A stretch of 39,479 bases of DNA, from assembly GCA_017454215.1 (NCBI GenBank), contig JAFTDL010000077.1:1-39479 (forward strand), in the 5' to 3' direction. The notes under the pieces were generated by a model that saw only the letters and a list, made by a program, of their open reading frames with translations, ran no database searches and was not told where the DNA came from. The stretch is from Lentisphaeria bacterium (GTDB lineage Bacteria > Verrucomicrobiota > Lentisphaeria > Victivallales > Victivallaceae). A program made the position numbers and the translations under genes. Positions 28,155-34,131 of the stretch are shown piece after piece (within the stretch, counting starts at the first letter, position 1; every line of letters starts with the position of its first letter).

Positions 28155-30740
28155 ATGGAACAGCGTCCCTTACTCCTCAGAACCTTCGTCGTCATCTTCG
28201 TGATGATCCTGTTCGTGCTGGCGATGCATCCTCTGCGCGAGCGCGACTACTATCAGGTCTTCGGCGAGATGCTCAAGGACAGGAACGATCCCGCCATGAA
28301 GACTCTGGTCGAAGACGCCAGAGCCCTCCAGAAGAAGGATCCCCAGCTCTTCCAGTCGCAGGCGCTTCTTCAGGCGGCCGACGCCAAGGGCATCGACCTG
28401 ACTTCCAAAGTCAAGGGCAGCGACCTTCAGGACAACCGCGACGTCATGAGCCTCATCCGCAAGAACGCCTCGGGCACCATCCGCCTCGGTCTGGATCTTG
28501 CCGGCGGCGTGGAGTTCTATCTCGAACTGGTCCCCGATGAAGAACTTCTTGCGAAAATGAAGAAGTCCGCCGGCGGCAGCGGCGAAAGCAGCGAAGAACT
28601 CAAAAGCCGCATGGCCAACGAGTTCGACCGTTACCGCGACGTCGCCATCGAGATCCTCCGCAAACGTCTCGAAGGTCAGAAGATCTTCGAGGCCGAGATC
28701 GCCCCCTCCGGCGGGTCCTACGTCGCGCTGCGCGCCCCCGTCGTCGCCCGGGACGAGAAACTCAAACTGCTCGATCTCATCAAGATGAGCGCCAAGCTCA
28801 ATTTCCGTCTTGTCCACGCGGACAACAACGCGTTGATCCAGCGCTATCTCGCGGATCCTGCCAATTTCAAAGTTCCGCTCGGGTACGAACTCATGTCCAC
28901 CAGCGAGTTCCGTCCCGGACAGGAGCCCCTGCACAGCTATTTCCTCGTTTCCCGCCGCTCCGAAATGGACGGCAAGGGCGTCACCATGGCCATGGCCACC
29001 AAGGATGAATTCGGCCAGCGCAAGATCGTGCTGCGCTTCAACCAGCAGGGCGCGGAGGATTTCGGCCGCGTCACCAGCGCCAACGTGGGACGCATGCTCG
29101 CCATCGTGCTCGACGGCAAACTCTACTGCGCGCCCAACATCAATCAGGGCATCACCGGCGGCAGCGCCGAAATTTCCGGACGCTTCTCCGAAGAAGAGGC
29201 CAAAAACATCGCCGACGCCCTCGTCAGCGGCAGTTTCCCCTTCCAGATCAAGGTCAACGCCGTGTTCGACACCGATCCCAAGCTGGGCGCCGCCAACGTG
29301 GCCAACGGCGTTTGGGTGGGGATCCTCTCGATGGTCTGCGTCGCCATCTTCATGATCATCTACTACCGCCTCAGCGGACTGATCGCCGTCGCGGCTCTCT
29401 GTCTCAACATCGTCCTCATCCTCGGGGCCATGGCGGCCTTCAACTGCACGCTGACCCTGCCCGGCATCGCCGGCATCGTGCTCACCATCGGTATGGCCGT
29501 GGACGCCAACGTGCTGGTGTATGAGCGCATCCGCGAGGAATTGGAGCAGGGCAAGAAGCTCGTCCACGCCGTCAATCTCGGTTTCGAAAAGGCTCTGCCC
29601 GCCGTGCTCGACGCCAACATCACGACTCTGGTCACCTCCATCATCCTCATGTACGTGGGAACGGGCGCGATCAAGGGATTCGCCGTCACGCTGAGCATCG
29701 GCATCCTTTCCAGTCTGTTCACGGCGCTTTTCGTCACGCGGCTCATTTACGACTATCTTTTCCGCTTCACGGGATTCGATCACATCTATATGCTCGAGAT
29801 CTTCCGCCGGACCCACTGGGACTTCTTCGGCATGTGGAAGCGCAGTCTCATCGTTTCCGGCGCTTTCTGTCTGCTGGCCGTCGTCCTGCTGGTCTCGCGG
29901 GGGACCGGCGTGCTGGGCGTGGACTTCACCGGCGGCACCACCGTCACGTTCAATTACGCCAGGCAGATCCCGCAGGACAAGATCGAGGCCGTTCTCCGCG
30001 CCGCGGGCTACAAGGAGCCCAGCGCGGTCTACAAGTTCAATATCGCCTCCCGCGATCAGGAACGCAAACTCGAGATCCTCATCCGCGGCGACCTGACCAA
30101 AGACAATGTCAGTCAGAGTCCCAAGGACGCGCTGGCTTCTCTGCTCAACGCCAAGTTCCCCGAGGCCAAGTTGAGCGGCGGTCTCGAAAGCAGCATCGGC
30201 GGACTCATCGGCTGGGAGTTCACCAAGGCGGCCATCACCGCGATCATTCTCTCGATGATCGGCATCGGCATCTACATCGCGCTGCGCTATGAGTACACCT
30301 ACGCCGTCACCGGCGTGCTGGCGCTGGTCCACGACGTGCTGGTGGTGCTGGGCATCTATCTGCTGATGGGCCGCACCATTTCGCTGACCGTGGTCGCCGC
30401 GCTGCTGACGGTCATCGGGTATTCGATCAACGACAAGGTGGTCATCTTCGACCGCATCCGCGAGAACATGAAACTGAAGAAGGCTCCCACCTTCGCCGAG
30501 ACGATCAACCTTTCGGTCAACCAGACTCTGAGCCGGACGATGCTGACCAGTATCACCACCTTCATCGTGGTGCTGATCCTCTATCTCGGCGGCGGCGTGG
30601 CGATCAACGACTTCGTGCTCATCATGATGCTGGGCGTCATCTTCGGTACGCTGTCCTCGATCTTCGTCGTCGCGCCCACGGTGGCCTGGCTGCAGGACGT
30701 CCGTGCCCGGCATGCCGCCCGCAAGGCGAAGAAAGCCTGA
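28155..30740 (+). CDS. secDF: Fused protein-export protein SecD-SecF
   Basis: This 861-residue protein joins SecD and SecF, which use the proton gradient to pull preproteins through the Sec channel. SecD part: N-terminal transmembrane segment (about 8-24), LGLDLAGGVEFYLEL, P1 periplasmic domain, and GIVLTIGMAVDANVLVYERIREEL with the functional Asp. SecF part begins near residue 570 with a new membrane segment, then GVDFTGGTTVTFNY, and YSINDKVVIFDRIRENM, its counterpart motif. Fused SecDF is common in Gram-positives, Planctomycetes and relatives. It directly follows yajC without an intergenic gap and is 8 bases from the next gene. Confidence 0.97.
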   Translation: MEQRPLLLRTFVVIFVMILFVLAMHPLRERDYYQVFGEMLKDRNDPAMKTLVEDARALQKKDPQLFQSQALLQAADAKGIDLTSKVKGSDLQDNRDVMSLIRKNASGTIRLGLDLAGGVEFYLELVPDEELLAKMKKSAGGSGESSEELKSRMANEFDRYRDVAIEILRKRLEGQKIFEAEIAPSGGSYVALRAPVVARDEKLKLLDLIKMSAKLNFRLVHADNNALIQRYLADPANFKVPLGYELMSTSEFRPGQEPLHSYFLVSRRSEMDGKGVTMAMATKDEFGQRKIVLRFNQQGAEDFGRVTSANVGRMLAIVLDGKLYCAPNINQGITGGSAEISGRFSEEEAKNIADALVSGSFPFQIKVNAVFDTDPKLGAANVANGVWVGILSMVCVAIFMIIYYRLSGLIAVAALCLNIVLILGAMAAFNCTLTLPGIAGIVLTIGMAVDANVLVYERIREELEQGKKLVHAVNLGFEKALPAVLDANITTLVTSIILMYVGTGAIKGFAVTLSIGILSSLFTALFVTRLIYDYLFRFTGFDHIYMLEIFRRTHWDFFGMWKRSLIVSGAFCLLAVVLLVSRGTGVLGVDFTGGTTVTFNYARQIPQDKIEAVLRAAGYKEPSAVYKFNIASRDQERKLEILIRGDLTKDNVSQSPKDALASLLNAKFPEAKLSGGLESSIGGLIGWEFTKAAITAIILSMIGIGIYIALRYEYTYAVTGVLALVHDVLVVLGIYLLMGRTISLTVVAALLTVIGYSINDKVVIFDRIRENMKLKKAPTFAETINLSVNQTLSRTMLTSITTFIVVLILYLGGGVAINDFVLIMMLGVIFGTLSSIFVVAPTVAWLQDVRARHAARKAKKA

Positions 30741-33220: not shown

Positions 33221-33249
33221 TTGACTTTTTTGCGAACAGTAACTAAAGT
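33221..33249 (+). promoter_or_regulatory. Promoter of the unknown membrane-anchored protein gene
   Basis: TTGACT (33221-33226) and TAAAGT (33244-33249) are 17 bases apart, about 60 bases upstream of a strong AAGGAGGT Shine-Dalgarno. Confidence 0.65.
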
Positions 33250-33316
33250 ATAGTGGTGCGGGCGGAGTCATGTCCCGCGCCTGACGTTCAAAGCCATATT
33301 TCAAGGAGGTATAAAC

Positions 33317-34072
33317 ATGGTAGCATTGTGGGTCATCGTTATGGCGGTCGGTCTCATCGGTATGATCGTCTGCAGCAAGAAGCAGAAAACCAATCCGGCT
33401 CTTCAGCCCGTCGGCATTCTTCTCTTTGTCGTCGTGCTCATCGGTGCGGTCATGCTGCTGAAGTCCATGGATGTTTTCGGCGGCGGCAGCTCCTCCGTTC
33501 TCAACAGTGAGATGCGGTTTGCCGAGTCCCGCGGCGCGAAGGTCGCCAAGTACGTTGCCGGTATCGCCGGCGGCAAGGAAGTTCTCTTCATCGCCGACAA
33601 GAACTACGAGCAGGGCGATCTGGGCAAGCGCATCGTCGAGACTCTCAAGAAGAACTGCGGCGGCAGCCTCGTCGTCGACAGCATTCCCGTTCCGGCTGAA
33701 GTCGAGACCAACGGCACCCCCATCGAGGAATACATGAAGGCCGCCCACATGGACGCTCTTCTGGCCAAGCATCCCAACGCCGCCGTTGTCATCAGCAACA
33801 TCGGTCTGCCTCAGGATGCCGGCAAGATGCTCTATTTCAAGGCTCCTGCCGCCGCCCGTCCGAAGCTGGTCCTCATGAATGCCGGTTTCAGCGCCAACTT
33901 CGATTTCCACAAGGCTCTGCAGAAGGGTGACATCGAGGCCGTCATCGTCACCAGTCCTTCCGCCAAGTACGACATCAAGGCCCCCGGCGACCTCGACAAG
34001 GCGTTCGATATCCGTTACGTCCTGGTCACCAAGGCCAACGCCGACAAGTACAAGGATCAGCTTCCCCGCTGA
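33317..34072 (+). CDS. Unknown membrane-anchored protein, probably well expressed
   Basis: I do not recognise this 251-residue protein. Residues 3-19 and 32-48 are two transmembrane helices separated by a short polar loop with KKQK, followed by a Gly/Ser linker (DVFGGGSSS) and a roughly 190-residue soluble domain. Alternating hydrophobic strands and helices (GKEVLFIADKNY, GGSLVVDSIPVP, AAVVISNIGLPQ, PKLVLMNAGFSAN, IEAVIVTSPS) suggest an alpha/beta fold, perhaps periplasmic-binding-like. Both short loops make the domain's side of the membrane uncertain. It has an optimal Shine-Dalgarno (AAGGAGGT), its own promoter and its own terminator, so it is monocistronic and likely abundant. Confidence 0.75.
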   Translation: MVALWVIVMAVGLIGMIVCSKKQKTNPALQPVGILLFVVVLIGAVMLLKSMDVFGGGSSSVLNSEMRFAESRGAKVAKYVAGIAGGKEVLFIADKNYEQGDLGKRIVETLKKNCGGSLVVDSIPVPAEVETNGTPIEEYMKAAHMDALLAKHPNAAVVISNIGLPQDAGKMLYFKAPAAARPKLVLMNAGFSANFDFHKALQKGDIEAVIVTSPSAKYDIKAPGDLDKAFDIRYVLVTKANADKYKDQLPR

Positions 34073-34102
34073 CCGCGTTTCGGCGACATCAGAAATCGGA
34101 AG

Positions 34103-34131
34103 ACTCCCGGCTTTGCGCCGGGAGTTTTTTT
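34103..34131 (+). terminator. Intrinsic terminator after the unknown membrane-anchored protein
   Basis: A perfect 9-bp stem, ACTCCCGGC/GCCGGGAGT with a 5-base loop, is followed by seven T. It starts about 30 bases past the stop. Confidence 0.92.

Follow-up and report, generated by a model that had tools for sequence, protein, structure and literature searches.

A membrane-anchored C-terminal lobe of a sugar-type periplasmic binding protein is conserved in Lentisphaeria

Here we describe a protein family of Lentisphaeria that is half a sugar-binding protein: it joins a conserved membrane hairpin to a lobe that corresponds to the C-terminal half of sugar-type periplasmic binding proteins, while the first lobe is absent. 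We put the probability of this identity, a membrane-anchored C-terminal lobe, at about 0.85. Taken jointly with a location of the lobe outside the cytoplasmic membrane, the reading is still likely. The member analysed here is encoded by a gut bacterium of Lentisphaeria, on a 39,479-nucleotide stretch of DNA that we refer to as the window. Its product had been annotated in a first pass as a two-helix membrane protein matching no recognised family.

Results

The family is spread through most of the class

The family is real and conserved, and the window gene is not an orphan. An initial search matched 26 of 40 genomes, the window's own genome counted in, and a scan of GTDB contigs yielded 47 loci that encode relatives. 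By title, 44 of these loci belong to Lentisphaerae, Lentisphaeria, Victivallis-type bacteria or Lentisphaera, one to Kiritimatiellota and two to an "uncultured bacterium". Members are present in Victivallis vadensis DSM 14823 and in strain zth2, and the closest relative, 90% identical, stems from a goat-rumen MAG (L054). Across the phylum, the family profile matches 95 of 288 genomes, which divide into 85 of the 98 genomes in the window's own class and 10 of the 190 others (counted from rows sorted by kinship). The 13 misses within the class comprise five genomes of the same genus, two of the same family and six of the same order. The taxonomic spread, which the first-pass annotation had proposed to survey, covers most of the class. 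No description of the family was found in the literature searched, the coverage of which was partial.

The gene is probably monocistronic and carries recurrent expression signals

The features of the gene and its product are collected in Table 1.

Table 1. Coordinates of the gene, its expression signals and the parts of its product in the window.
Feature	Position	Strand	Basis
Coding sequence, 251 aa, ATG start; membrane-anchored half periplasmic binding protein	33317..34072	+	ORF call
Sigma-70-type promoter, TTGACT-17-TAAAGT	33221..33249	+	Exact hexamers and spacing before orthologs in 8 distinct genomes
Shine-Dalgarno site AAGGAGGT (perfect)	33303..33310	+	Strong sites recur in orthologs
Intrinsic terminator	34098..34131	+	Stem 34098-34130, T-tract to 34131
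Membrane helix 1, residues 2-22	33320..33382	+	Model and hydropathy
Inter-helix loop C19-P31 (C, K, K, Q, P), most conserved stretch	33371..33409	+	3.47 bits/residue
Membrane helix 2, residues 29-50	33401..33466	+	Model and hydropathy
Soluble lobe, residues 57-251, homologous to C-terminal lobe of Peripla_BP_4 proteins	33485..34069	+	Model, structure matches, profile-profile comparison

The gene had been credited with its own promoter, a strong ribosome-binding site and a strong terminator, and all three are borne out by comparison with its relatives. By score alone the promoter is weak: it attains 9 of 12 consensus matches, which is equalled by 34% of shuffled upstream regions and reached by 32 of the 47 family upstream regions. 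However, 16 of the 165 fetched loci share the exact hexamers with the 17-base spacer, always 5' of the family gene, and these loci reduce to the eight genomes of Table 1 once duplicate copies of the same place are merged by hand. This recurrence is stronger evidence than the score. The sequence AAGGAGGT is found four times in the window, where 0.86 occurrences are expected, and Shine-Dalgarno matches of at least five bases precede 30 of the 47 family genes, as opposed to 2% in shuffles. The terminator, which did not appear in the list of the automatic scan, has a folding energy of -22.8 kcal/mol (z -4.5; 0 of 200 shuffles equally good), and similar stems follow 33 of the 47 family genes (0 of 940 shuffles, which preserve base composition only). 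Separate transcription combined with a strong ribosome-binding site is therefore a recurrent trait of the family, and the gene is probably monocistronic.

Codon preference places the window gene above 18 of the 21 other ORFs. Across 44 loci the family gene has a mean rank of 0.66, with the top position in eight loci and the bottom position in three. Judged from these sequence-derived signals, high expression of the family gene is only moderately supported, and the earlier suggestion of an abundant product only weakly. The further suggestion of a structural or stress protein finds no support in the present analysis.

The soluble domain has the fold of a single binding-protein lobe

An AlphaFold2 model built from 46 sequences (pLDDT 91.1, pTM 0.76) shows one lobe preceded by the two helices, which agree with hydropathy windows at residues 1-22 and 25-57. 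Both N-terminal helices of the first-pass annotation are thereby recovered, as is its alpha/beta domain of about 190 residues, which measures 195. Structure comparison, a check suggested in that annotation, identified this domain as a lobe of a type I sugar-binding protein. Foldseek returned 46 chains at E ≤ 0.001. Of these, 45 were classed as binding proteins of the sugar type or designs based on them, by title or, for chains with uninformative titles such as 1dbp, 6hbm and 5xss, by the known identity of the protein; the lone exception is 7e7g. In VIA, the best 50 rows extend from Z 12.4 (rmsd 3.8, 164 residues aligned) down to Z 10.1, and in 49 of these 50 the alignment starts at model residue 55-68 and covers the later part of the matched chain. 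The type I alpha/beta lobe fold is hence found by model, Foldseek and VIA alike. Two hinge-joined lobes are not: the model is single-lobed, and the profile of an N-terminal lobe fails to align.

Profile comparison groups the lobe with the sugar class

The family was compared with 16 Peripla_BP_4 proteins (two of them identical), taken from 20 loci in 31 genomes of the same bacterial family; all E-values refer to a single comparison. A profile of 101 family sequences, redundant and distant members included, matched this set with 95.3% probability (E 2.2e-8, 168 columns) and its C-terminal part alone with 96.0% (E 3.9e-9), in a collinear alignment that reaches the end of the protein. The N-terminal part alone gave 0.2%. 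Among the controls, the reversed profile gave 1.1%, and 40 column shuffles scored at most 16.4, as opposed to 61.8 for the real comparison. This is on par with the score of 62.0 between Peripla_BP_4 and Peripla_BP_6. The narrower profile of 46 sequences reached 52% (E 1.4e-4) and, with the C-terminal part alone, 29%. Sequence homology to Peripla_BP_4 was thus found through a subgroup: five of the 16 proteins carry the signal (95.0%), while the remaining 11 give 19.8% (E 0.0012). Scoring with single sequences gives a weaker signal, with E 1.5e-5 for the best Peripla_BP_4 protein among 40.

Against 19 Peripla_BP_6 stretches the 101-sequence profile gave 1.3%. ABC_sub_bind, which we take to be the class of the single-domain protein RmSBP discussed below, gave 0.3% in a set of just five stretches, three from a single ORF. 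Peripla_BP_4, for its part, matches the Peripla_BP_6 and ABC_sub_bind sets with 94.7% and 91.0%. These comparisons group the lobe with the sugar class, and specifically with its C-terminal lobe.

The statement that the product matches no recognised family holds for the curated libraries, in which neither Pfam (hmmscan, best E 0.097) nor NCBIfam contains a family over its cut-off for the window protein. It no longer holds once fold and profile are compared, by which the lobe is assigned to sugar-type periplasmic binding proteins; the Peripla_BP_4 relationship is missed by Pfam hmmscan and emerges in profile-profile comparison. Curated matches such as Tetraspanin, in five of 19 members, and DUF1516 are weak and far from convincing. 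Sequence searches of the PDB likewise gave no convincing relative; one search had a single match, to a D-ribose binding protein with E 1.9.

The lobe probably lies outside the cytoplasmic membrane

The loop between the two helices is basic and the N-terminus is very short. By the positive-inside rule, this suggests a cytoplasmic loop and a lobe that is, with high probability, located outside the cytoplasmic membrane. Independent hints come from distant relatives. Three of them (L105, L106 and L110) start, by eye, with lipoprotein-like or single-anchor signals, and a 1403-aa ORF (L101:752-4960) ends in a half-lobe and has a signal-like start, again by eye. The latter ORF also has a weak glycoside hydrolase 2 match below the cut-off. 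Further lobe matches lie within long ORFs of 789 aa (G324) and 572 aa (G341).

The hairpin was also considered as a module of other proteins, and this idea was rejected. In 118 genomes of the class, 48 of 52 hairpin matches coincide with family matches (41 with those of the first family profile search and seven with later ones), and the other four, with E-values of 0.003 to 0.007, are weak and seem to be chance hits.

Gene neighbourhoods vary

In the window, the gene is preceded by ybaB, recR and gltX and followed by genes for citrate synthase and a phosphoribosyltransferase. A shared operon with gltX or gltA was rejected, since the arrangement is kept no farther than the goat-rumen MAG, which preserves the upstream order only. 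In 15 of 46 loci, a same-strand gene of one cluster ends 98-144 bases upstream of the family gene; the one member tested is a Peptidase_M28 with glutaminyl-cyclase relatives in the PDB. Five of these 15 loci have ftsA- and ftsZ-like genes farther upstream, and downstream of the family gene a dapF-like gene is found in six of the 46 loci and a dapA-like gene in five (all names by reading). The full order, with ftsA-like and ftsZ-like genes, an M28/glutaminyl-cyclase-like lipoprotein and the family gene, in some cases continued by dapF- and dapA-like genes, is seen in L085, L088, L089, L094 and L100. The window does not have this order of ftsA, ftsZ and M28 genes. The family gene may have had its earlier home in this cluster of cell-division and lysine genes.

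In six of the 46 loci (L067, L068, L069, L070, L078 and L084), a gene that reads as ClpC-like follows 119-458 bases after the family gene. By eye, no ABC importer, kinase or chemoreceptor was recognised among the 40 listed neighbour clusters that occur in at least four of the 46 loci.

Discussion

The C-terminal lobe of type I proteins of the Peripla_BP_4 class (PF13407), such as the ribose-binding protein, has the same fold and order of elements as the lobe described here. In contrast to these proteins, the family does not have the N-terminal lobe, and hence no two-lobed cleft, and it carries a membrane hairpin where the signal peptide would stand; no ABC operon was recognised among its recurrent neighbours. 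A natural single-domain substrate-binding protein, RmSBP from Rhodothermus marinus, has been described. In the accessible part of its description, RmSBP is likened to tryptophan- and phenylalanine-binding proteins, genes of this kind are placed near chemoreceptor genes, and the need of single-domain binding proteins for a partner is left open (PMC10805632). As far as that part of the source goes, RmSBP shares with the family a natural single alpha/beta domain that resembles the C-terminal domain of a binding protein, whereas a membrane hairpin is not mentioned there. We regard the family as a further form of single-lobe binding protein.

Isolated lobes of the ribose-binding protein fold alone (PMC10601554; PMC9815098), and the separated halves of the Thermotoga maritima ribose-binding protein reassemble to a heterodimer that binds ribose (PMC10601554), as the available portions of these reports have it. 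These halves are engineered, soluble constructs, whereas the Lentisphaeria family is natural and membrane-anchored. With the present assignment, a protein shared by most of the genomes sampled from a little-studied class, to which the cultured Victivallis vadensis belongs, acquires a fold and an ancestry. The assignment also adds a single-lobe family of the sugar-binding type that is natural and widespread. The function of half binding proteins, which in the source material available has so far been approached through engineered halves and RmSBP, could thus be tested in living bacteria.

How might such a half protein act? We tentatively propose, at less than even odds, that the exposed cleft face binds a partner, which may be a second half-lobe, a complete binding protein or a receptor, rather than closing on a solute alone. 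The conserved hairpin and its loop would then dock at the membrane, or relay the partner-bound state there, and the protein would act as a half-receptor or adaptor instead of a solute-capturing subunit of an ABC importer. In favour of a partner are family genes that lie side by side in several genomes. Adjacent pairs occur in G041, G050, G100, G224, G241, G325 and G341, and also in L055 and L063, which may repeat some of the former genomes. Such tandem family genes are possibly partners. A more specific and rather improbable version is that Lentisphaeria evolved their half binding proteins as a class-wide family whose members pair into a two-polypeptide, two-lobed receptor, which would signal via the conserved cytoplasmic hairpin loop. 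If true, this pairing would be the natural counterpart of the laboratory split ribose-binding protein. Tandem family genes are also seen at L118:4500-6075 and L111:3650-5473, and the second copy in L118 has a different anchor.

Alternatively, the protein could be an abundant housekeeping protein of the membrane or envelope, in which the lobe is merely a scaffold and has no ligand or receptor role. We regard this as unlikely, although several observations fit it. The ribosome-binding sites and terminators are conserved, the gene is found in 85 of 98 genomes of the class, and conservation is highest in the hairpin and loop, with 3.47 bits per residue in the loop against 2.3 in the soluble part after residue 87. 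On the strands, positions facing the cleft are conserved no more strongly than those on the opposite side (p 0.61), and binding thus finds no proof in the conservation of this face. On the other hand, codon bias is only mildly raised and 13 class genomes are without the gene. In addition, L164, P165, F230, R233 and N241 are invariant in 46 sequences and G163 and P214 nearly so, and these loop residues suggest more than a scaffold.

The single lobe could also be a true solute receptor, which would capture a small molecule on behalf of a sensor or importer encoded elsewhere. This possibility draws on the fold and homology of the lobe and on one Peripla_BP_4 relative (L122) that adjoins an ABC ATPase gene. 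It is made improbable by the model, in which half of the ligand cleft is absent, by the recurrent neighbours in the 46 loci, among which no importer or sensor gene was recognised, and by the absence of a candidate contact residue from the window gene. This residue, an arginine aligned by eye to a ribose contact of the ribose-binding protein, is present in 24 of 46 sequences and replaced by leucine in the window gene.

An accessory role for the M28/glutaminyl-cyclase-like lipoprotein, for instance in binding its product, would account for the 15 of 46 loci in which a gene of M28 type (one tested) immediately precedes the family gene on the same strand, but is highly improbable, as no such gene is adjacent in the window or the other 31 loci and the two genes, some 100-140 bases apart, are seemingly transcribed separately. 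Least probable of all is a convergent resemblance to the lobe in a domain with a flavodoxin-like or another Rossmann-type fold: such folds are common and the narrower profile gives only moderate probability, yet the alignment is collinear with the C-terminal and not the N-terminal lobe, the controls are low and the structure matches are overwhelmingly binding proteins.

Farther upstream in the window, yajC precedes secD and secF, which are seemingly fused in a single 861-aa ORF (28155-30740; names by reading the translations). An 847-aa ORF antisense to this fusion (28170-30713, minus strand) is likely an artefact of high GC content.
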